From a virus, in the IMG/VR virus record IMGVR_UViG_3300042541_000569, positions 1-38,133 of that record: a DNA stretch of 38,133 nucleotides. One strand, 5' to 3'. The translations under genes and the position numbers were made by a program. Below are positions 6,036-32,356 of the stretch, piece after piece. A model generated the notes under the pieces. The model did no database searches. It was given only the letters and a program-made list of their open reading frames with translations, and had not been told where the DNA came from. Each line of letters begins with the position of its first letter. Positions within the stretch are counted from its first letter, which is position 1.

Positions 6036-6072
6036 AAGCCTCACGCCTAACCGCGTGAGGCTTTTCGTTTTT
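6036..6072 (+). terminator. Rho-independent terminator after the capsid gene
   Basis: A perfect 9-bp stem, GCCTCACGC (6038-6046) pairing with GCGTGAGGC (6053-6061) around the loop CTAACC, is followed by TTTTCGTTTTT. It lies 25 bases after the major capsid stop. It probably caps the abundant capsid transcript, so the genes downstream are expressed by readthrough or from another promoter. Confidence 0.9.
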
Positions 6073-6091
6073 GACGGTTCGTGCGCCTTCT

Positions 6092-7477
6092 ATGCTCATT
6101 TCACTTTGCGTAATATGCGGCAACGAGGCGCACCACATCGAGGCGATGCTCAATTCCTTCGTCGGTCAGATCGACGAGCTGTCGCTTGTCCGCGCTATCG
6201 GCGCAAAGGAACCGGACGCAACCGAGGAGATGGCTCGCAGCTGGTGCGCGACAAACGCCGTTCCTTTCGTTTTTAGCGACTATCGGAACGGAGTCACGGC
6301 TCAGGCTTGGAAGCACGTCGATTCCTTCGCAAAGGCCCGCAATCAGGCTTTCGCGCAGGCGACCGGAGACTGGCTCGTCTGGGCCGACTGCGACGACGTC
6401 TTGGCTGAGGCTGACGATCTCAAGGACAAGCTCGCCGAACTCTCCGAGAACGTGCTGATGGTGCGCTGTCCGTATGACGTGCGCGGCACCGGAAAGAAAC
6501 TACAACGCGAGCGGTTCATCCGTCGCAGCGCGTTTCAGTCTGGGCGCGTTTGGCATCACGACGTACACGAAAACCTGCTGCTGTTGCCAAACGACCGCCA
6601 TGTCGAGTGGACAACTCCGGTCTGGAGGCATGAGCCAGCCTGCATAAAACAAGATAACCGCAAGCGTAACCTTGCTATTCTAGGCCGCAGCGTAGGCGAA
6701 GCGGCGACTCAGTATTTTTATATTCACCAAGAACACTACTGCGCGGGCAATAAGCAGGCCGCCGAACAGTTTGGGCGCATCGCGCTTTCGTTTCCGAACC
6801 TCGACGACTCTTTTCGCTACGAGGTGCAGCTCAACCTTGCGCGCATCTCGGCGAGTCGGCGCGAGTCGATGCAGTTCGCCATGGGCGCACACGGCGTCTT
6901 TCCGTGGTGCCGCGAAGCCATCGCCTCGATCATCATGCTGGCGTTTGAGAAGAACGACGGCAAGCGCGCGAGCTGGTGGGCGTCTCGGATGCTAACCTTG
7001 CCCGAGCCTGCGCCAAAAGACCGTCCGTGGACGCACGAGGCAAAGTGGTACGGGTGGGCTGGGCATGATCTCGCCGCGCGTGCATATCGCTTGGCCGACA
7101 TGACGGCGGACGCGAACGCGCTCCAGCTCGTTTATCACAAGCACACCGAGCCGACTATCCGCATCACTCAGAAAACGCTCGGCAACTCGACGCGCTCGGT
7201 GTCGTTCCGTGACGCTTGGTTATCAACTGCGGCACGGCCCGAGATCGTCGAGCATTACTTTCAAATCAAGGCCGACGACTCCGAGACGATGGCAATGGCG
7301 AAGCAGTTCCTGCATCACGTTGGCGAGCCTACCGAAATGCCGCGTGCGGTGATTCGCGTCAACGTCGAGGACGGCATGGTGCCGCCGAACAACTGGGACG
7401 AGCGGGTTCTGACGTGCGGAGAAACCGTGATCGATGTGGAGAACATTGAGCGAATCCTTGGAGCCAAGAAGCCATGA
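6092..7477 (+). CDS. GT-A (family 2-like) glycosyltransferase
   Basis: I start at the ATG at 6092 (MLISLCVICGNEAHH); the frame is open to a TTG at 6071, which lies in the terminator's T-tract. The N-terminus has the family-2 strand motif (SLCVICGNEAHHIEAML), ARNQAF at 82-87 and the metal/nucleotide-sugar motif DCDD at 99-102 (WLVWADCDDVL). After ~220 the protein is helical with repeated 'YRLA', 'QFGRIAL'-like units, probably a TPR-like domain for acceptor or partner binding. It would transfer a sugar from a nucleotide-sugar donor; the acceptor could be a virion protein, host surface glycan or DNA. A gene between the capsid gene and head-completion genes favours virion protein, but this is inference. 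461 residues. Confidence 0.75.
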   Translation: MLISLCVICGNEAHHIEAMLNSFVGQIDELSLVRAIGAKEPDATEEMARSWCATNAVPFVFSDYRNGVTAQAWKHVDSFAKARNQAFAQATGDWLVWADCDDVLAEADDLKDKLAELSENVLMVRCPYDVRGTGKKLQRERFIRRSAFQSGRVWHHDVHENLLLLPNDRHVEWTTPVWRHEPACIKQDNRKRNLAILGRSVGEAATQYFYIHQEHYCAGNKQAAEQFGRIALSFPNLDDSFRYEVQLNLARISASRRESMQFAMGAHGVFPWCREAIASIIMLAFEKNDGKRASWWASRMLTLPEPAPKDRPWTHEAKWYGWAGHDLAARAYRLADMTADANALQLVYHKHTEPTIRITQKTLGNSTRSVSFRDAWLSTAARPEIVEHYFQIKADDSETMAMAKQFLHHVGEPTEMPRAVIRVNVEDGMVPPNNWDERVLTCGETVIDVENIERILGAKKP

Positions 7478-21125: not shown

Positions 21126-21788
21126 ATGAATACGACAGACGTTAAAACAGATACTCAAGTCGCGGTACAAGATACCGCTCAACCGAAAGCTCAGATCAGC
21201 TTCGGCAATCAAGGCGTGCAGTTGGCTTCAATCGACGAGGCTTTCCGCTTCGCCAAGGCAGTCGTCGCCTCTGGCTTCGCACCACGAGGCATGGAGAAAC
21301 CGGAGAGCGTGATGATCGCAATCCAACTCGGCATGGAGCTAGGACTGACGCCAATGGCTGCGTTGCAAAACACGGCGGTAATCAACGGACGGCCCGCGAT
21401 TTATGGCGATGCCGCTCTCGCTTTGGTTCGCGCCAGCGGCCAGCTCGAAACCTACGCCGAGGAAGAAGTCGGCGAGGTCGGCAAGGACTCGCACGGCTAC
21501 AAGATCACGGTAAAGCGCAAAGGATTCGACGCGGCAAGCGAGACCTTCACTACTGCCGACGCCAAAGGCGCGAAGCTCTGGGGCAAGTCAGGCCCGTGGT
21601 CGGACTATCCAAAGCGTATGTTGAAATTCCGCGCTCGCGGTTTCATCTTGCGCGACCAGTTCGGCGACATCCTTAAAGGCCTTCGCACCGTCGAGGAAGC
21701 GCGCGATATTGCGCCAGAAATTAACGTGACGCCACTCGCCGAGAAAGTCGCAGGCGGCTTGAGCGATGCGATTGGAGGTGCGGCTTGA
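21126..21788 (+). CDS. recT: RecT-family single-strand annealing protein
   Basis: The 220-residue protein contains the RecT core: MIAIQLGMELGLTPMAALQN, then TAVINGRPAIYGDAALALV, followed by a strand region and the KRMLKFRARGFILRDQFGD helix. These match the 'LGLxPxxALxxIyvInGRpxiygda' pattern of the family. It would anneal complementary single strands made by the exonuclease encoded at 22542, repairing or circularising phage DNA and making genomes mosaic. The four short genes between them are likely co-expressed. A TTG-started small ORF overlaps its stop. Confidence 0.85.
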   Translation: MNTTDVKTDTQVAVQDTAQPKAQISFGNQGVQLASIDEAFRFAKAVVASGFAPRGMEKPESVMIAIQLGMELGLTPMAALQNTAVINGRPAIYGDAALALVRASGQLETYAEEEVGEVGKDSHGYKITVKRKGFDAASETFTTADAKGAKLWGKSGPWSDYPKRMLKFRARGFILRDQFGDILKGLRTVEEARDIAPEINVTPLAEKVAGGLSDAIGGAA

Positions 21789-22430: not shown

Positions 22431-22549
22431 ACTCAATTCGCAGGTTGATCGGCTGGATTATCGAATGGGCAATGCTCATTCTGTTTACGATTATTTTGAT
22501 CGTTATCTGGCCGTTCATCTGCGAAGCGGAGGATAAAAAAGATGAATGA
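22427..22549 (+). CDS. Single-pass membrane protein, 40 aa
   Basis: The start is GTG at 22427 (overlapping the previous TGA) with GGAGG 11 bases upstream. A basic end (NSIRRL) precedes a long hydrophobic helix (residues ~8-31, MLILFTIILIVIWPF) and an acidic tail (EAEDKKDE). It could be an inner-membrane toxin-like or superinfection-exclusion protein, or a small holin accessory; sequence alone does not decide. Confidence 0.6.
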   Translation: MNSIRRLIGWIIEWAMLILFTIILIVIWPFICEAEDKKDE

Positions 22550-23369
22550 ATCAATTCAAGATTATCACGCCAACGTTGCGATCTCACACTCGAAGCTAGA
22601 GTGTTACCGCCGCAGGCCCGCGCTCTACTTTAAGAAGTATATCGCAAAGACGTTGGCTCAACCAGAAGAGTCCACGGCGTTCCGATTAGGCAGCGCGGTA
22701 CATTGCGCCGTGCTCGAGGAGAAGGAGTTTGCAGCGCGCTATATTCAGAAACCTGATCTCGAACGGCGCACGAAAGAAGGCAAAGCGGCATACGCAGAGT
22801 TCGCAGCGCAGCACGAAGGCAAGACGCTACTCGATGCCGAGGAACTGGCGCAAGTGATAGCGATGCGTGAAGCGGTAGCGGCACATCCTATTGCCTCGCA
22901 GTTACTCGCGGACGGATTACCAGAAACGACATGGCGCAAGCAGCAGAACAACGCACTTGGCGCGCTGCAATGTCGCACGGACTGGTTCAGCTCGCTCGGT
23001 TGCGAGATGACAAACGGCGAGCCGTACGTGGTGGACATCAAGACGGTCGAGAGTCTGGACAGCGACGCCTTCCGAAACTTTGAGCGTGCTGCGTTTTCCT
23101 ACGGCTACCATCGACAGGCAGGGTTTTATTTGCCGCTCATCAACGAAGTGTTCAAGTGGTCGGTCTCGCGGATGTATTACGTGGCCGTCGAAAAGGCAGA
23201 ACCGTACGGGTGCGCGGTATATAAATTATCCGACGACGCAATCGCTCGCGGACAGGACGAGAACATCGCCGATTTAATTCGCCTCAAGCGAAGCATCGAG
23301 GAAAACAACTGGCCGAACATCGAGCCAGTCCTGCACGAACTCTCATTGCCAGCGTGGTACAAATCATGA
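22542..23369 (+). CDS. RecE/exonuclease VIII-like PD-(D/E)XK nuclease
   Basis: The 275-residue protein has the RecE/DUF3799-type core: AISHSKLECYRRRPALYFKK near the N-terminus, FRLGSAVHCAVLE (47-59) with His54, CRTDW (Asp147), VVDIKT (Asp165-Ile-Lys167), and YGYHRQAGFYL. These are the nuclease motifs I (H), II (D), III (DxK) and the Q/Y motif. It should chew one strand of double-stranded DNA ends for RecT. A GGAGG (22528) sets the start. Its Cys content is not exceptional. Confidence 0.85.
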   Translation: MNESIQDYHANVAISHSKLECYRRRPALYFKKYIAKTLAQPEESTAFRLGSAVHCAVLEEKEFAARYIQKPDLERRTKEGKAAYAEFAAQHEGKTLLDAEELAQVIAMREAVAAHPIASQLLADGLPETTWRKQQNNALGALQCRTDWFSSLGCEMTNGEPYVVDIKTVESLDSDAFRNFERAAFSYGYHRQAGFYLPLINEVFKWSVSRMYYVAVEKAEPYGCAVYKLSDDAIARGQDENIADLIRLKRSIEENNWPNIEPVLHELSLPAWYKS

Positions 23370-23777: not shown

Positions 23778-24016
23778 GACAGACTCAAATCAAAAACGGT
23801 GGTCTAGCGTTTCCGCATTTCCAATTTACGGAAAATGGAAAAATAGAACTATGTCCGCAAGGAGGTATGACCTTGCGCGACTACTTCGCGGGTCAGGCGT
23901 TGGCTGGATTTTGCGCTGCTCCGCATGACCTACGAAACAAAAATGACGAGACCATGGCTAAGGGTGCTTTTGAGGCCGCCGACGCAATGCTCGCCGAACG
24001 AAAGTATAGCAAATGA
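23774..24016 (+). CDS. Conserved small phage protein, 80 aa
   Basis: A strong Shine-Dalgarno motif (aaggaggttacaaaATG) marks this start. The C-terminal part has GGMTLRDYFAGQALAGF and ADAMLAERK. This 'GMTLRDYFAAxAL' pattern is very common in small proteins of phage replication regions and has no known function. It overlaps the resolvase gene by four bases. Confidence 0.7.
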   Translation: MRQTQIKNGGLAFPHFQFTENGKIELCPQGGMTLRDYFAGQALAGFCAAPHDLRNKNDETMAKGAFEAADAMLAERKYSK

Positions 24017-24468
24017 CCTTCTTCATTCACGGCGACCCAAAAGGCCAGCCACGCCCAAGAGCCTTCGCCCGCAAGATGGGCGGAAAATATGTCGCGCGTG
24101 TTTATGATTCGGACGTGGCCGACGAGTGGAAGCGCGCGGTTAATGTTGCACTTGTTAAGGCGATCAACGAGCAAAAGCCGATCTTCAACGCTGAAGGCAC
24201 CTTTGAAGTCGTGGCGTCTTTCTGGATGCGGCGACCCAAATCACATTTCAACGCGGGCGGCTTCGTAAAGCTCAACGCTCCGGTGCGACACGGTCAAAAG
24301 CCTGACGCCGACAATCTGGTCAAACTGGTGCTCGATCGCATCACGCAGCATCAAGGCATCTGGCGCGATGATTCGCAGGTGGCGTATCTGACCGTTGCGA
24401 AATACTGGGCAGGCAGGGACGAGGACGTCGGCTGCAATATAACCGTGCAACTGCTCACGCAAAATTAA
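24013..24468 (+). CDS. rusA: RusA-like Holliday junction resolvase
   Basis: The 151-residue protein has GDPKGQPRPRAFAR at the N-terminus and the RusA core KPDADNLVKLVLD (96-108) with Asp98 and Asp100, plus WRDDSQV (Asp119, Asp120), which together make the metal-binding active site. It resolves four-way junctions arising during recombination and replication, and can debranch DNA before packaging. It is followed after five bases by the replication gene. Confidence 0.85.
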   Translation: MTFFIHGDPKGQPRPRAFARKMGGKYVARVYDSDVADEWKRAVNVALVKAINEQKPIFNAEGTFEVVASFWMRRPKSHFNAGGFVKLNAPVRHGQKPDADNLVKLVLDRITQHQGIWRDDSQVAYLTVAKYWAGRDEDVGCNITVQLLTQN

Positions 24469-25377: not shown

Positions 25378-25956
25378 ATGAAATCAGAACGAGAAAACAA
25401 CTCAGAACAGGATATGCTTCGTGCCTCGTATCAATACGCGGCGCGCAAAAGGACTGACATCAACGAGCATTTGCCTATGCTATCTTTCCTCGCGCAGCAA
25501 TGCGATCACGTGACCGAGTTCGGAGTAAGAACAGGCGAGAGCACGCTTGCGTTCCTGCACGGAATGCGTGGCAAGCACGACGCGAGGCTTCGCTCCTACG
25601 ACATCAACGACGATTACGGCGTGCGTCAGGCTTTTGCCGGTCTTACCAAAATCGACTGGGTTTTTGTAACGGCGAGCACGCTCACGATTCCAAAGATCGA
25701 GCCAACCGATTTGCTGTTCATCGACACGCTGCACAATTTCACGCAGGTCTCGCAGGAACTCGCCCTGCACGGCGATCAAGCGAAACGTTGGATTGCGTTT
25801 CATGACACCGAGACGTTCGGCAACGTCGGAGACGATAGCGATGAAGGAATCAACAACGCTATTAGACAGTTTATGAACGTGCGACCTGACTGGCGCGAAG
25901 TATATCACACGCATCTAAACAACGGGCTGACGGTCATCGAGCGAGAAAGTGTTTGA
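25378..25956 (+). CDS. SAM-dependent methyltransferase-like protein (family 24 type)
   Basis: The 192-residue protein has a Rossmann-like motif I (VTEFGVRTGESTLAFL, 45-60), a following acidic strand (LRSYDIN), and TDLLFIDTLHNFTQVSQEL (110-128) with the D-x-xH pattern of methyltransferase-24/cephalosporin-hydroxylase-like enzymes. WIAFHDTETFG follows. Such phage enzymes usually modify sugars or small molecules. It has no PC motif, so it is not a cytosine-5 methyltransferase, and no DPPY/NPPY, so it is not an amino-type DNA methylase. Target unknown. Confidence 0.6.
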   Translation: MKSERENNSEQDMLRASYQYAARKRTDINEHLPMLSFLAQQCDHVTEFGVRTGESTLAFLHGMRGKHDARLRSYDINDDYGVRQAFAGLTKIDWVFVTASTLTIPKIEPTDLLFIDTLHNFTQVSQELALHGDQAKRWIAFHDTETFGNVGDDSDEGINNAIRQFMNVRPDWREVYHTHLNNGLTVIERESV

Positions 25957-26779: not shown

Positions 26780-26913
26780 AAATATACCTCAACCATTGTC
26801 CAGAAGTGCTCACAGAAGGCCGTTCTATGCTGTTTTTAAGGCATTTGACATCAAATAGGGCCCATGGGGGTGGGCGGGGGGGCAAAGTGAGCTTTCTGCG
26901 TTTAAATCAGTAG
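26776..26913 (+). CDS. Possible small protein, 45 aa
   Basis: ATG 26776 overlaps the previous TGA (ATGA) and gives MKIYLNHCPEVLTEGRSMLF, then a Gly/Arg-rich middle encoded by the G-run at 26866. The coupling position argues for it, but the Gly-run may simply reflect a DNA element. If it is not a gene, the region 26780-26977 is non-coding. Confidence 0.3.
   Translation: MKIYLNHCPEVLTEGRSMLFLRHLTSNRAHGGGRGGKVSFLRLNQ
26866..26882 (+). other. G-quadruplex-capable tract
   Basis: GGGGGTGGGCGGGGGGG has enough G-runs for a quadruplex on the + strand and is preceded by overlapping palindromes GGGCCC and CCCATGGG (26858-26868). It stands in the longest gene-poor gap upstream of the packaging region. 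It could be a transcription or replication block, a termination element or part of a cos/pac region. None of these is proved. Confidence 0.45.
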
Positions 26914-26977
26914 CGGGTTAAGCGACCTCATCACAAAAAACCCATTCCGTTTTCTTTAACAACCAAACAAAAAAATT

Positions 26978-27637
26978 ATGAGTAAACAAATAGTCGCAGA
27001 TTCGATACCAGTGTTTTGCGCGCATTCAGCCATCGTTGATGTCGCAACTCTTGTTCCTAATCCAAGGAATCCAAATAAACACCCTGATTCACAAATTGAT
27101 ATTTTGTCGCGAGTTATAAAAGCTCAAGGCTGGCGATCTCCTATCGTCGTCTCTTCGCGAAGCGGATTTGTGGTTAAAGGTCATGGCCGATTGCAAGCCG
27201 CAATGCGTCTCGGCGTAAAAAGTGTACCTGTCGATACACAAAAATATGAGACAGAAGCTATGGAATGGGCGGATTTGATTGCCGACAATCGCATTGCCGA
27301 ACTATCTGAAATTCAAAACGATGATTTGAAAAACTTGATGAAAGATTTGGAATCAGCGAACTTTGATTTGGAGTTAACTGGTTACACAGCATCAGATTTA
27401 GATAGTTGGCTCAAAGAAGATTTGATCATGGCTGGTAAAGAACAAGGCGCGACTCCAGCAGAATCACTTGAGGATTACGAAAACTCAACAGTTCGCCAAA
27501 TTGTTTTAATCATGGATGTTCAAGAGTTTGAAGAAATCATGTTGAAACTTGATACTATCAAAAAGAAACATGAATTAGATAATAACACTCTAGCGGCAAT
27601 GACTGCTATTCGCGAACATGCAAACACTTGTAATTGA
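26978..27637 (+). CDS. ParB-like nuclease-fold protein
   Basis: The 219-residue protein has the ParB N-terminal domain: VPNPRNPNKHPDSQIDILS, GWRSPIVVS and the signature VVKGHGRLQAAMRLG (66-80), then PVDTQKYETEAMEWADLIADN with typical 'NRIAELSE' end. The C-terminal part has no helix-turn-helix that I recognise. In phages this domain is often paired with DNA-modification enzymes. Here the next gene encodes a TET/JBP-like dioxygenase, followed by a glycosyltransferase. It starts an AT-rich island. The leader aacaaccaaacaaaaaaattATG has no Shine-Dalgarno motif. Its stop lies inside the next gene (20-base overlap). Confidence 0.8.
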   Translation: MSKQIVADSIPVFCAHSAIVDVATLVPNPRNPNKHPDSQIDILSRVIKAQGWRSPIVVSSRSGFVVKGHGRLQAAMRLGVKSVPVDTQKYETEAMEWADLIADNRIAELSEIQNDDLKNLMKDLESANFDLELTGYTASDLDSWLKEDLIMAGKEQGATPAESLEDYENSTVRQIVLIMDVQEFEEIMLKLDTIKKKHELDNNTLAAMTAIREHANTCN

Positions 27638-28451
27638 AAAAAAGAAAATTGATTTAAAGAAATTCATTCAGAAAAGAGCAGCAGAGAATGATTGTTCTGT
27701 TCTTTTGAAAGATGAGTTTAAGCTAGTTGATAAAGAAACGAACCGACTCGTTTGCGTATACATAAAACCAACTGAAGATGAACAAACATTTTCAACGATT
27801 TTTGATACGTGCCTGAACGTAAAGTACACCGAAAGCATCAGAACTTCTGGATTGAAAACTACCAGTCGGATTTTTGGTTACAATCCCAGAAATGCTATCA
27901 GAAAAGATTTTTGTTCTGCCACTTCTCTGGCTACCGAAAATCCAGAAATGCACGCCAGACTTATCAAAGGCGGTGCGCTGGCTGCGAAATATTATGCCTT
28001 AACCAACAAAGAACTCTACGAAGAGCATCTGAAAACAACCAAAGAGAAAATAGTTTCAGATTACAGATTCACAGATGTTCCTTTTACTTCTGGAATCATA
28101 AATGATAACAATCCTTTGTGCTATCATTTTGATTCTGGAAATTTTAAGAACGTCTGGTCGGCTATGATCGTTTTGAAACACAACATTGGCGGCGGATATT
28201 TATCTATGCCGGAGTACGATATTAACTGCGAGGTTTCCGACCGATCTATTTTTTATTTTGATGGGCAAAACATTTTGCATGGAGTTACTCCTATTTCAAA
28301 ACTTGCTCCAGATTCTCGCAGGTTTTCAATTGTTTACTACAGTTTGAAATCTATGTGGAATTGTCAGCCATTGAGAGAAGAAGTAGCGAGGGCGAGAATG
28401 CGTAGAGAAGAAGTTGAAATGCGCAGATTCAAAGGGGAAAAAGTTAAATGA
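27618..28451 (+). CDS. TET/JBP-like 2-oxoglutarate/Fe(II) dioxygenase
   Basis: The 277-residue protein shows the oxygenase core at the C-terminal half: YHFDSGNF (HxD iron ligands His170, Asp172), SAMIVLKHNIGGGYLSMPEY, FYFDGQNILHGVTP (distal His221), and RRFSIVYYSLKSMW (Arg for 2-oxoglutarate, 234/235). The N-terminal part has SRIFGYNPRNAIRKDFC (83-99), as in phage TET/JBP-type proteins. The family hydroxylates methyl groups on bases: 5-methylcytosine (TET) or thymine (JBP). The order ParB, dioxygenase, GT with overlaps suggests a single function. I am sure of a double-stranded-beta-helix dioxygenase and fairly sure of the TET/JBP branch. It overlaps the next gene by four bases. AT-rich (~30-40% G+C by eye). 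Confidence 0.75.
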   Translation: MQTLVIEKKKIDLKKFIQKRAAENDCSVLLKDEFKLVDKETNRLVCVYIKPTEDEQTFSTIFDTCLNVKYTESIRTSGLKTTSRIFGYNPRNAIRKDFCSATSLATENPEMHARLIKGGALAAKYYALTNKELYEEHLKTTKEKIVSDYRFTDVPFTSGIINDNNPLCYHFDSGNFKNVWSAMIVLKHNIGGGYLSMPEYDINCEVSDRSIFYFDGQNILHGVTPISKLAPDSRRFSIVYYSLKSMWNCQPLREEVARARMRREEVEMRRFKGEKVK

Positions 28452-29416
28452 AAATAAATCTTTTATATTTAGCCGAACCAAAATTTGGCGGATGGGTTAG
28501 TTTTACTGAACACCTTTTTTTGTGTTTAAAAAAATCTGGTCACGACGTTTCTTTATTTGGAGTATCTCAAAAATTTAATACAGAAGTTTCATTGTTTTCT
28601 GGAAGCGTCGGTATTCAAAAAATTCCCATTCAATCTATTTTTGAATTAAACGGTTTCATGCTAGTTACAGCATTAGATAAATCAAATGTTCAAAACGCTG
28701 AAATTCTTTTGAAAAGAAAAGTTGGTTACGTTGTTCACGACCCAACTGAATTAACAGAAGACAGAATAAATTTTTATAGAAAATCACATAAAGTTTTTGG
28801 AATCAGAAAAAATATGATTCCTGTTTTATCTGATAACGGAATCAATGCATCTTATCTTCCGCATCCTTATTGTTCTGTTAATCCGAAAAGAAAAGTTTCG
28901 TTTAATGCTGTTGCATATTCTCGTTTGGATTGGGACAAGCACACCGACATAATTGCAGAAGCAAATTCTATTCTTCCGAGAGATAAGCGATGCCGTATTT
29001 ACGGAGCAGAAAACTCTATGTACACATTTCACAAACTTTCGAAAAGGTTTCCTGATTGGAAGAATAATTATTTTGGCAAATTCCCTAAGGCAACTGGCGC
29101 GGGAGCAATCCTTGCTTCAAATGCAAATTGGGCAGTTGATATGTCTGTTATCAAAAACGATGGAAGCGGATCTCAGTATACTTTTTTAGAAGCTTGGGAT
29201 GCTGGCAGCGGTCTCGTTTTAAATAATAAGTGGACGAAAGATAACACCGGAGAAATGAAAAGCGGAGTTAACTGCATTTCTATTGAGAACGGTTCGTCTC
29301 TTGCTGCGATACTTTTAACAGAACCTCCAAAATCTATTATTGAAAACGGAAAAACATCTTTACTGCACCACGAACACAATAGTGTTAATGAAGCATTCGT
29401 TAATGGACTTATTTAA
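28448..29416 (+). CDS. GT-B glycosyltransferase (family 4-like)
   Basis: The 322-residue protein has the GT-B layout: an N-terminal Rossmann half (INLLYLAEPKFGGWVSFTEH) and a C-terminal half with AYSRLDWDKHTDIIAEAN (Arg159, Lys164) and DGSGSQYTFLEAWDAGSG (238-255), the donor-binding Glu248 motif seen in GT4 enzymes. It could add a sugar to the hydroxyl made by the upstream dioxygenase. That target is inferred from neighbourhood; a surface glycan is possible. It overlaps the dioxygenase (ATGA) and its stop abuts the terminase gene. About 30% G+C in 28441-28500. Confidence 0.75.
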   Translation: MKINLLYLAEPKFGGWVSFTEHLFLCLKKSGHDVSLFGVSQKFNTEVSLFSGSVGIQKIPIQSIFELNGFMLVTALDKSNVQNAEILLKRKVGYVVHDPTELTEDRINFYRKSHKVFGIRKNMIPVLSDNGINASYLPHPYCSVNPKRKVSFNAVAYSRLDWDKHTDIIAEANSILPRDKRCRIYGAENSMYTFHKLSKRFPDWKNNYFGKFPKATGAGAILASNANWAVDMSVIKNDGSGSQYTFLEAWDAGSGLVLNNKWTKDNTGEMKSGVNCISIENGSSLAAILLTEPPKSIIENGKTSLLHHEHNSVNEAFVNGLI

Positions 29417-30066
29417 TGCAAAACGAAGTTACACAGGCTGCTAATAAAATTGCGCGACAAAATATTTCAAATATTGTTGCCAAACTTAAATCCGGAAAAA
29501 CTCTTAGCATTTCAGAACAAAATGCTATGGAGAAGTGGGAATCTTCTGAGAACGATGGAGAATGGGTTAAAGACATTACGGCACTAGCAAAAGAACTCGG
29601 CGTGAGTCGCAGAACAATTTATGATGCTAGAGCAAAATTTCCAGATAAAGCTCCAAAAAAAGAAGAAGGTTCTAGGAAAGAAAACTTAATCGCTTGGCAA
29701 AGATTTTGTGCAGAAAATTTAATTGGAAAAGATACTGCTACTGTAAATTTATCTGAACTCAAAGCACAACTTATGCAGCGCGAGATTACTTTGCGCGACA
29801 TGAAGATTGCGCGAGAAGCAGGAGAAACGATTGCGAAAGAGATCGTAGATGATATGTTCGCCACGCTCGCCCAGAAACTCGACTTGCTCCTGCGTCTAAA
29901 GCTAGAGGTCGAGCTGGGTCAGCGCGTGATCGGCAAGAACGCAGCCGAGGCGAACGTCGAGGGCGCGCTGATCCTCGATGAAATCCGCGAGGTGATAAAC
30001 TCTAACATTGCGCTTTATCAAAACGACATGGTCGCGCGCTCGGCGAACTCGAAGGACGGCCAATGA
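29416..30066 (+). CDS. terS: Small terminase subunit, Nu1-like
   Basis: The 216-residue protein has a helix-turn-helix at about 54-75 (ITALAKELGVSRRTIYDARA), a charged linker (KAPKKEEGSRKEN), and a C-terminal helix bundle (AQKLDLLLRLKLEVELGQRV, ILDEIREVINSNI) like TerL-binding parts of Nu1-type subunits. It recognises the packaging site. Base composition changes inside the gene: 29701-29760 is about 28% G+C, 29881-29940 about 58%, with the change between 29790 and 29860. This puts the DNA-binding half in the AT-rich cassette and the TerL-binding half in the resident backbone. It starts at the A of the previous gene's TAA. Confidence 0.8.
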   Translation: MQNEVTQAANKIARQNISNIVAKLKSGKTLSISEQNAMEKWESSENDGEWVKDITALAKELGVSRRTIYDARAKFPDKAPKKEEGSRKENLIAWQRFCAENLIGKDTATVNLSELKAQLMQREITLRDMKIAREAGETIAKEIVDDMFATLAQKLDLLLRLKLEVELGQRVIGKNAAEANVEGALILDEIREVINSNIALYQNDMVARSANSKDGQ

Positions 30067-30569
30067 GCTGGTCGGTTTTTGTAACGCTAACATCAGATGA
30101 AGTTGCTCACGGAATAACCAAAGGAACCGAGAGACAAGAAAGTGCAGAACGCAAAAAAAGTGTCTCGGCTTTTCCGGAACAATTTCCTAATCAACTTTTG
30201 CTAAACCATCAGCACGCGGCTTGCGCTGAATTGGCGGTCGCTAAATTTCTTGGAATAAAAACAGAACTCGGGGTTGATGTTTATTCGGTGCCAGACATAG
30301 ACGGAACGCGAATTGATGTTCGTTGGAGCAGAAGCCGAAACCATTGTAAAGTAAGACAGAGAGACATTGAAAGAGATCGAGTAATTGTTGGAAGCATAGG
30401 CCCAATGAATTGCATAGAGATTCTTGGGTGGATTCTTGCGAGTGATGCACCCAGTCGTTGTCGAAGAAGCAACCCTAACGATGGAAAACCGCTATGTTTA
30501 TTTATCGAAGAACTTGCATGGGAAAACCCGCATGATTTAACCGAGAAGATTTATCTACTCAGAAAATGA
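30063..30569 (+). CDS. PD-(D/E)XK-like protein between terminase subunits, 168 aa
   Basis: The gene sits between small and large terminase with four-base overlaps at both ends. The pattern AACAELAVAKFLGI, then GVDVYSVPDIDGTRIDVRWS and VIVGSIGPMNCIEILGWI matches a phage family with E...(15-20)...D...DxR/K-strand and a final 'xxIxGWI' strand, suggestive of a PD-(D/E)XK nuclease fold. The central Lys is Arg (IDVR). It may act in packaging, restriction of other DNA, or be a moron. It is AT-richer than the large terminase. Confidence 0.55.
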   Translation: MSWSVFVTLTSDEVAHGITKGTERQESAERKKSVSAFPEQFPNQLLLNHQHAACAELAVAKFLGIKTELGVDVYSVPDIDGTRIDVRWSRSRNHCKVRQRDIERDRVIVGSIGPMNCIEILGWILASDAPSRCRRSNPNDGKPLCLFIEELAWENPHDLTEKIYLLRK

Positions 30570-32356
30570 CCGAAACCGAAAGACGCCTCACTATCTTCAA
30601 GCTGCCGAAGCGTGATCGCTCTCCGATCTACGAGTGGGCGCGCAAGCACATCGTGCTGCCCGAGTCTTACGCGACGTCTGGCCCATTCAACGTGCGAATC
30701 TCGCCTTGGCTGATTCCGATCTTTGACGCGCTTCAAAATCCGCTCGTGCGTCGCGTGCATTTCCGCAAGGCGGTGCAGATCGGCGGCACGCTCGTCGCCG
30801 ACATCTGGGTGCCGTGGCTGATCTGCAACGACGCTGGCCCGATCTCGTGGACGATGCAGACCGACGAGATGATCGATAGGCACGCCAAGTCGCGGCTCAA
30901 CCCGATCTTTGAATCCTGCAAGCCTGTCGCCAAAATGCTGCCGCGCGCAGGCCCAATGAAGACCACGACCGAAATTTACTTTGGCGGTTTCTTTTTCATC
31001 CTCAACCCTGCCAATCTTTCCTCGCAGCAATCGCAGTCCATCCGCTACAAGATTAACGACGAAATCTGGCTCCCTAAATGGCAAGATGTTTATGGTCATG
31101 CGGTTGCGCGTGTATCGCGTTTCGAGGAAGTGGGCCGCTCGAAAATCTATAACACATCACAAGCTCCGGTCATGGATTTGGAAACTGGCAACGTCGAGGA
31201 CACGAGCTATCGTCAAGGCAACCAGCAAGAATGGAGCGCAGAGTGTCCGTCGTGCGCCAAGGTTCATCCGGTCGCGTTCACGCTAGAGAAGAACGGCGAG
31301 ACAGGTCTGCGCGGTGGCGTCGTTTGGGATGCAGCTGCAAAACGAGAAGATGATACTTGGGATATAGCGCGCGCAATAGAATCTTGTCGATTTCGATGTC
31401 CGCATTGCGGTTACGAGTCATTAGACTCAGACGCTACTCGCAACTCTTGGAAACGCACCGGACGATTTGTTGCCATGCGACCCGACGCACCGATTGAGTT
31501 TCAGTCGTTCCGCGTTGAGGCACTCGTATCTCGACCGATGCGTTTGCTTGTCGAAGAGTTCTGCGCCGCCGACAATCATCACGTCAGGCAGGGCGACGAC
31601 AAAATGAAGATTGAGTTCAAAACGAAGCGCGAGGCGCGTCCGTGGATTGTCGAAAAGAAGGTCGTCAATCTATTCGTGCAGGTGAGTGACTACACGGTCG
31701 CGCAGTTCTCGAATGGAGAACAGATCGACGGCGAGGTGATTCGATTCATGGCAATCGATCGACAGCAAGATCACTGGTGGCTAGAAATTGGTGCGTTCAG
31801 CTCTGCGACTGGCCCGACCTACAAACAACTTTATTTTGGGCGGATCGAGACGCGCGATCAACTTCGTCAAATGCAACATCGTTATAAGGTGCAAGACTCG
31901 TGCGTCGCGCAGGACAGAGGCTATCGGCCTGCCGACGTGGATCGTGATTGCGCTGATTTTGGATGGCGAGGAATGAAGGGATATGCGCGAAAAACGTGGA
32001 CTATGCGCGACGAAAACACAGATGCGCTGATTAACTTTCCGTTCTCGGAGCCACGCGTTAGCGACTATCGTGGTGGAGATGTGTTCTACTACGACTGGTC
32101 AGGAGACTACTTCAAAGACATTCTGGCGAACGCGCTGGAGAACAAAGGCGATCTCAAATGGCTTATGCCCGCCGACGTCAATCCGCTCTACCTCGAGCAC
32201 CTCAAGGGTGAGTCCAAGGTCGAGATCCGGACCGGCGTCTGGGAATGGCGTGAAGTGAAAAGCAACGCGCCGAACCACGGACTCGATACCTCAGCGATGA
32301 TGCTCTGCATGGCAACGATTGCGAACGTGGTTCGCTACACGCCGCCTAAGGAGTAA
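30566..32356 (+). CDS. terL: Large terminase subunit, GpA family
   Basis: The 596-residue protein shows the GpA layout: WARKHIVLPESYATSGPF, a P-loop region FRKAVQIGGTLV (66-77), Walker B RYKINDEIW (160-168), a zinc ribbon (CPSCAKVHP ... CRFRCPHCGYES), and a nuclease half with RFMAIDRQQDHWWLEIGAF, VAQDRGYRPADVDRD and NHGLDTSAMML. It pumps DNA into the prohead and cuts it. The P-loop has GGT where most ATPases have GK(T/S), like lambda gpA, which uses an upstream basic residue. Here Arg67/Lys68 could take that role. GC-rich (about 65% in 30601-30660). Confidence 0.9.
   Translation: MTETERRLTIFKLPKRDRSPIYEWARKHIVLPESYATSGPFNVRISPWLIPIFDALQNPLVRRVHFRKAVQIGGTLVADIWVPWLICNDAGPISWTMQTDEMIDRHAKSRLNPIFESCKPVAKMLPRAGPMKTTTEIYFGGFFFILNPANLSSQQSQSIRYKINDEIWLPKWQDVYGHAVARVSRFEEVGRSKIYNTSQAPVMDLETGNVEDTSYRQGNQQEWSAECPSCAKVHPVAFTLEKNGETGLRGGVVWDAAAKREDDTWDIARAIESCRFRCPHCGYESLDSDATRNSWKRTGRFVAMRPDAPIEFQSFRVEALVSRPMRLLVEEFCAADNHHVRQGDDKMKIEFKTKREARPWIVEKKVVNLFVQVSDYTVAQFSNGEQIDGEVIRFMAIDRQQDHWWLEIGAFSSATGPTYKQLYFGRIETRDQLRQMQHRYKVQDSCVAQDRGYRPADVDRDCADFGWRGMKGYARKTWTMRDENTDALINFPFSEPRVSDYRGGDVFYYDWSGDYFKDILANALENKGDLKWLMPADVNPLYLEHLKGESKVEIRTGVWEWREVKSNAPNHGLDTSAMMLCMATIANVVRYTPPKE

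Follow-up and report, generated by a model that had tools for sequence, protein, structure and literature searches.

The window, that is, the whole stretch of 38,133 bases of a virus record that was analysed, carries three + strand genes at 26978–29416, each overlapping the next. The first (26978–27637) encodes a ParB-like protein of 219 aa, recognised by its ParB_N fold and its Pfam and PHROG matches. The second (27618–28451) encodes a TET/JBP-family 2-oxoglutarate/Fe(II) oxygenase of 277 aa, assigned by PF12851, an AF2 model and Foldseek. The third, the tailoring gene of the cassette (28448–29416), encodes a predicted GT-B, GT4-like glycosyltransferase (GT) of 322 aa, assigned by AF2, Foldseek and a family alignment. 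The overlaps were 20 bp (ParB/TET), 4 bp (TET/GT) and 1 bp (GT/next gene), all three ORFs were intact, and the GC contents were 40%, 37% and 35%, respectively, against 52% for the contig. The initial annotation, which had described three overlapping genes in an AT-rich island before the terminase, was therefore accurate on the layout. Downstream of the GT gene, without gaps, follow an HTH gene (29416–30066, + strand; possibly the terminase small subunit, from a weak phrog_57 match at E 0.012), a gene for a 168-aa protein, and the gene for the terminase large subunit (30566–32356, + strand), which is the downstream landmark of the cassette in relatives. The ParB-like, TET and GT genes form one AT-rich operon upstream of the terminase.

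A promoter scan of the cassette gave a site count below that of shuffled sequences. A G-rich stretch (GGGCCCATGGGGGTGGGCGGGGGGGC) lies at 26855–26885, inside the 200-bp gap 5' of the ParB gene. About 1 kb upstream of the cassette is a gene for a SAM-dependent methyltransferase (25378–25956; Methyltransf_24, E 3.4e-7), to which the profile search gave no DNA C5-methyltransferase assignment. A second glycosyltransferase, of family 2, is encoded at 6071–7477 (Glycos_transf_2, E 3.7e-10; phrog_13126), directly 3' of the major head protein gene, and could glycosylate the virion or another target. The contig ends share an exact 114-bp direct repeat, and a single long ORF stays in frame through the joined ends; because of these two features the window is probably a complete genome, which backs its earlier description as apparently complete. 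A scan of prokaryote genomes for the host returned only three distant actinobacterial loci, and the TerL relatives were too distant for placing the phage.

Profile search of the protein encoded from 27618 matched Pfam Tet_JBP (PF12851) over residues 88–242 at E 9.7e-11, with 41.6 bits against a curated cut-off of 34.9. The iron ligands H170-x-D172 (28125–28133, + strand) and H221 (28278–28280, + strand) and the 2-oxoglutarate-binding R235 (28320–28322, + strand) were invariant among 36 aligned TET sequences. The HxD, His221 and Arg235 picked out earlier as oxygenase residues thus stood, whereas Arg234, named with them, varied. The AF2 model of the protein (pLDDT 90.7) was compared with the PDB by Foldseek, and the best 26 matches were all TET/JBP enzymes (CcTet, CMD1, NgTet1 and TET2 at 1e-10 to 1e-12), with AlkB-type enzymes next at 2e-7 and no PhyH among the top 50 structures. 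Since TET/JBP enzymes lead 26 PDB chains before the AlkB type, a PhyH-type or protein-hydroxylase identity is disposed of. From its profile match and predicted structure we assign the 277-aa protein as a TET/JBP-type dioxygenase, in keeping with the resemblance to the TET/JBP branch noted at the outset.

The label queuine tRNA-ribosyltransferase, attached to phrog_6059 and to many mycobacteriophage records, was also considered and was rejected for want of Pfam or fold support. The RefSeq name to this effect on TET/JBP proteins of cluster B mycobacteriophages (for example NC_051582.1 gene 2) looks like a propagated misannotation. That so many mycobacteriophage homologues bear the label would suit a cassette that is inactive or that acts on RNA or protein. 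We regard this as highly improbable, as TET/JBP is the sole significant family and PDB match, the label misfits the fold, the catalytic residues are invariant in the 36 sequences and the three ORFs are intact.

The ParB-like protein matched ParB_N (PF02195) at E 2.7e-5, its 24.6 bits falling just below the cut-off of 26.3, and it matched PHROG ParB families at 1e-33 to 1e-37 and Spo0J chains at 3e-4. In an alignment of ParB proteins, the GHGR of the ParB signature GHGRLQAA, correctly recognised in the initial annotation, was box II (G68-H-G-R71; 27179–27190, + strand). The window protein keeps the box II Arg, and many ParBs of ADDT and TAGT cassettes have a Thr (GNHT). The ParB_N domain with the box II Arg places the protein in the ParB fold, but it does not qualify as a canonical partition ParB, scoring 30.3 bits against the 58.45 of the TIGR00180 model and lacking the central HTH for parS. 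The initial annotation had this protein choosing or nicking sites; profile searches of it found no HTH domain and no nuclease domain, only the NTP-binding ParB fold. A 2025 survey reports CTP, ATP or GTP binding by this fold via the box II Arg, and frequent fusion of the fold to methyltransferases in phages (PMC12704722). In PADLOC the protein matched the N-terminal part of a model for type II methyltransferases (MTase_II), another sign of ParB_N domains travelling with DNA-modifying enzymes. Residues 166–215 (27473–27622; ENSTVRQIVLIMD...) were conserved in the closest ParB-TET cassettes, in several of which identity over the whole protein was only 31–39%; this segment is possibly a TET-contact or dimer region.

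The GT used alone as a query found nothing in Pfam, PHROGs, NCBIfam, PDB sequences or the phage collection, and structure prediction and family building were therefore needed. Relatives were gathered with the protein itself and then with its alignment, and the resulting family profile (alignment A2) found no PDB sequence. The AF2 model, built from 18 sequences, had a pLDDT of 92.0 and a pTM of 0.91. Foldseek against the PDB matched it to GT4-type GT-B enzymes at 1e-8 to 1e-12, with MshA, BshA, PimA, WaaG and SenB among the structural matches at about E 1e-8, and to T4 DNA alpha-glucosyltransferase (AGT), including a DNA complex (1xv5, 1y6f), with TM scores of 0.70–0.71. In the viral Foldseek search it matched two glycosyltransferases from SP-15, a Bacillus phage whose thymines are hypermodified (PMC5977210). 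The model has two Rossmann-like domains, and its nearest structures are of the GT4 type, as expected of a GT4-like GT-B enzyme. A G14-G15-W16 loop, R159 and K164 were invariant among the 18 sequences. By analogy, R159...K164 (SRLDWDK; 28922–28939, + strand) would correspond to the Arg/Lys pair with which GT4 enzymes bind the donor phosphate, and the N-terminal GG loop together with such a pair is GT4-like. The counterpart of the EX7E motif reads DGxGxQYTFLE; E248 is conserved in most sequences, and the residue 8 before it is S, C, G or R in close relatives. Because this motif is not canonical, we file the protein as GT-B and not as a proven GT4 member. The TAGT profile (PF20691) matched neither the window GT nor its 8 close relatives. 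The 322-aa protein is, on its predicted structure, a GT-B, GT4-like glycosyltransferase that falls outside the Pfam families. This agrees with the initial annotation, although single-sequence profiles were empty. GT4 enzymes are retaining, and an alpha-linked sugar is therefore predicted, a linkage made uncertain by the non-canonical EX7E motif.

The cassette was compared with 80 loci that the TET profile picked out of IMG/VR, and with cultured phages. In all 77 loci whose upstream DNA was available, ParB immediately preceded TET; a script called 75 of them, and inspection added L004 and L005, which the script had missed through a long start choice. This set includes a few re-fetched contigs and near-copies and is not one of independent loci. 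The gene 3' of TET varied, being a GT-B, an FkbM methyltransferase, a TAGT (PF20691), an ADDT (amino-acid:DNA transferase, PF18724) with a P-loop kinase (PF18751), or unassigned, and the slot labels needed 27 changes on the TET tree. Among the cultured phages, Altadena has a TAGT together with a deacetylase. The swaps were clean. Loci L013 and L016 are 89.5% identical in DNA across ParB-TET, diverge in the slot, which holds FkbM in one and TAGT in the other, and return to 85–92% identity downstream. The terminase and portal region of another locus (L021) has 78.6% identity to that of the window, and its slot holds FkbM. The window has the features of a ParB-TET-tailoring-terminase cassette, namely ParB directly 5' of TET, a variable tailoring gene and a terminase downstream. 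Of the three-gene order that relatives had been expected to conserve, the ParB-TET pair and the link to the terminase held, but the third gene did not: the fixed unit is ParB-TET, and the GT is one of several interchangeable tailoring enzymes.

In one relative (L001) the cassette (26916–30008) was 94.8% identical to that of the window and the terminase-portal region 86%; the higher cassette identity suggests recent exchange or stronger constraint. Five loci (L072–L075 and L080) had two tandem ParB-like genes 5' of TET. The window also encodes a RecT-like annealing protein (21126–21788), an exonuclease VIII-like nuclease (22542–23369) and a RusA-like resolvase (24013–24468), which as a recombination module might account for the swapping of cassettes.

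Which base the TET enzyme would oxidise was approached through the gene content of these phages, most of the records compared being partial. Profile search of the window for a C5-methyltransferase (PF00145) found none, bearing out the earlier statement that the genome encodes no cytosine-5 methyltransferase. The enzyme was likewise absent from six of the six cultured ParB-TET genomes tested (LilMcDreamy, Tonitrus, Altadena, MO526, HTVC112P and CaiB), and it was present in 5 of about 84 other records, mostly partial, some of the five being fragments. Of 71 loci in the separate Melnitz-type (Melnitz-2) phage TET lineage, 65 had an HhaI-like C5-methyltransferase next to TET and the other 6 broke off at the TET gene; a ParB-like gene occurred in 2 of the 71. 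By family, the enzymes in the slot of sister cassettes (ADDT, P-loop kinase and TAGT) are those of known or predicted thymine hypermodification, which has been published of the CaiB and Tonitrus cassettes (PMC9302106, PMC11955845). In T-even phages, TAGT homologues also have glucosylated 5hmC as a substrate (PMC13216743), and the tailoring families are therefore not strictly thymine-specific.

When the GT alone was used as the query, its relatives adjoined ParB-TET except in four records, all of which lacked TET. PF00303, the thymidylate-synthase family, was present in 4 of these 4 records and absent from 22 other records tested, and HMUDK_hel, the helical domain of 5-hmdU DNA kinase, was present in 3 of the 4, the fourth being a 5.9-kb fragment. 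At the position that sets base specificity, all four PF00303 proteins had the uracil-type Asn, and an Asp there is the mark of cytosine enzymes (PMC6400193). For one GT family, TET and a dUMP-type hydroxymethylase thus seem to be two alternative routes to 5hmU, in line with 5hmU as a shared intermediate. The four TET-less GTs form a separate clade, 32–37% identical to the window GT, so that their acceptor need not match that of the window GT. These records also bear on the idea that the cassette enzymes have separate jobs, with the 5hmU or oxidised cytosine made by ParB-TET being an end product or serving another enzyme, and the GT glycosylating elsewhere, for example a virion protein or a host glycan. 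Such a division would be compatible with a GT that is present in only some cassettes and whose sequence points to no acceptor; but relatives of the GT either adjoin TET or, in 4 of 4 other cases, share a record with a dUMP-type hydroxymethylase, and the alternative slot genes are of DNA-base tailoring families. We therefore consider separate jobs improbable.

The residue eight positions after the 2-oxoglutarate-binding Arg (R+8) is Leu (L243) in the window TET, Leu, Met or Lys in most relatives, and His in TET2 and NgTet1, where it contacts 5mC. Melnitz-type TETs have Asp there, and some others have Arg, among them HTVC112P; because HTVC112P is a ParB-TET phage, R+8 is only suggestive as a substrate marker. 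The host might supply 5mC, in which case TET would oxidise this host-made 5-methylcytosine to 5hmC and the GT would glycosylate 5hmC. Other phage TETs are proven active and work with a C5-methyltransferase (PMC12730594, PMC11347163), those with proven activity acting on 5mC according to Burke et al. 2021 as cited in PMC11347163, and 5hmC is the substrate of T4 AGT, whose fold is related to that of the GT. This cytosine route nevertheless appears unlikely, for the window and the cultured ParB-TET genomes lack the C5-methyltransferase that the Melnitz-type lineage keeps adjacent, the R+8 His is replaced here and in most relatives, and sister cassettes hold thymine-pathway enzymes. Thus, of the two substrates offered by the initial annotation, the genomic context favours thymine, with 5hmU as the predicted product of oxidation, over cytosine.

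Starting from the observed gene identities and folds, the fixed ParB-TET linkage, the swapping of the tailoring gene and the absence of a C5-methyltransferase, we propose that the three genes are one operon whose products modify the DNA of the phage itself once it has been replicated. In this scheme TET/JBP would convert selected thymines of the DNA to 5-hydroxymethyluracil by oxidising their 5-methyl group. The GT4-like GT-B enzyme would then move a sugar from a nucleotide-sugar donor onto the 5hmU hydroxyl; the linkage is probably alpha, and the product would be a base-J-like glycosyloxymethyluracil. The ParB-like protein may be an obligate partner of TET, in the simplest case an NTP-dependent factor for DNA loading or targeting, and the modified genome would be shielded from host nucleases. 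The joint reading, in which TET makes 5hmU, the GT adds a sugar, ParB acts as partner and the DNA is shielded, is in our judgement likely. Base oxidation followed by addition of a sugar had been put forward for this locus before; the TET/JBP oxidase, the GT-B enzyme and the ParB and terminase links agree with it, but the GT is not a fixed part.

This kind of cassette has already been published in actinophages. As far as our searches go, three elements are new: a GT-B family without assignment occupies the slot, the swaps are clean, and the GT family is linked both to TET and to hydroxymethylase phages. Some of this may already appear in Iyer et al. 2013 or Burke et al. 2021; we infer glycosyl-5hmU as the product. 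A fuller proposal is that of a phage base-J-like pathway, in which a thymine-directed TET, a ParB-fold NTPase guide and a GT-B enzyme would yield alpha-glycosyloxymethyluracil, and in which exchange of the tailoring gene alone, with ParB-TET kept constant, would change the DNA coat (sugar, methyl or amino-acid adduct); we hold this in even balance. Were the cassette to act as its context suggests, phages would have an equivalent of trypanosome base J, formed directly on thymine in DNA. The one-gene swap behind a constant oxidase in near-identical sister phages offers a simple test of decoration diversifying under host restriction, and the cassette provides a concrete partner for asking what part ParB-fold proteins play in DNA modification.

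Several known systems resemble the cassette in part. In kinetoplastids, JBP1/2 and JGT convert thymine to 5hmU and glycosyl-5hmU, a likeness by analogy only. Base J is beta-glucosyl, and glucosylated 5hmdU was said in 2019 to be unreported in phages (PMC6449724). The earlier suggestion of a base-J-like product holds as a resemblance, but the product would not be base J itself, because an alpha link is predicted here. T4 AGT has a GT-B fold like the window GT (TM 0.71) and is a retaining DNA-base GT, but it shares only 12–15% identity, its acceptor is 5hmC, and cellular GT4 enzymes score higher. The TAGT (PF20691) of TET cassettes and T-even phages occupies in sister phages the slot of the window GT, but it has a GT-A fold (PMC13216743), whereas the window GT is GT-B and without a Pfam family. 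TETs of the Melnitz-2 type, the C5-methyltransferase-linked kind of Burke et al. 2021, are, as in the window, TET/JBP oxygenases for DNA base hypermodification; they differ in having an HhaI-like methyltransferase directly 5', usually no ParB, and Asp at R+8, and are very distant in the tree.

The cultured Pelagibacter phage HTVC112P has, like the window, a ParB-TET pair upstream of the terminase, but its gp17–gp19 are ParB, TET and FkbM, with a methyltransferase in the slot and a diverged TET with Arg at R+8. ParB-TET cassettes were predicted by Iyer et al. 2013, as relayed in PMC9302106 and PMC11955845, and the authors of the CaiB study described genes for ParB, TET/JBP, a pyrophosphorylase and a kinase ahead of the terminase gene (CaiB genes 1–5, PMC9302106). 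The TETs of the actinophage cassettes (CaiB, Tonitrus and LilMcDreamy) are 27–31% identical to the window TET. Their slot holds ADDT/aGPT-Pplase and a kinase where the window has a GT-B, and no kinase was found with the window cassette. Common to these cassettes and the window are overlapping ParB, TET and tailoring genes directly before the terminase.
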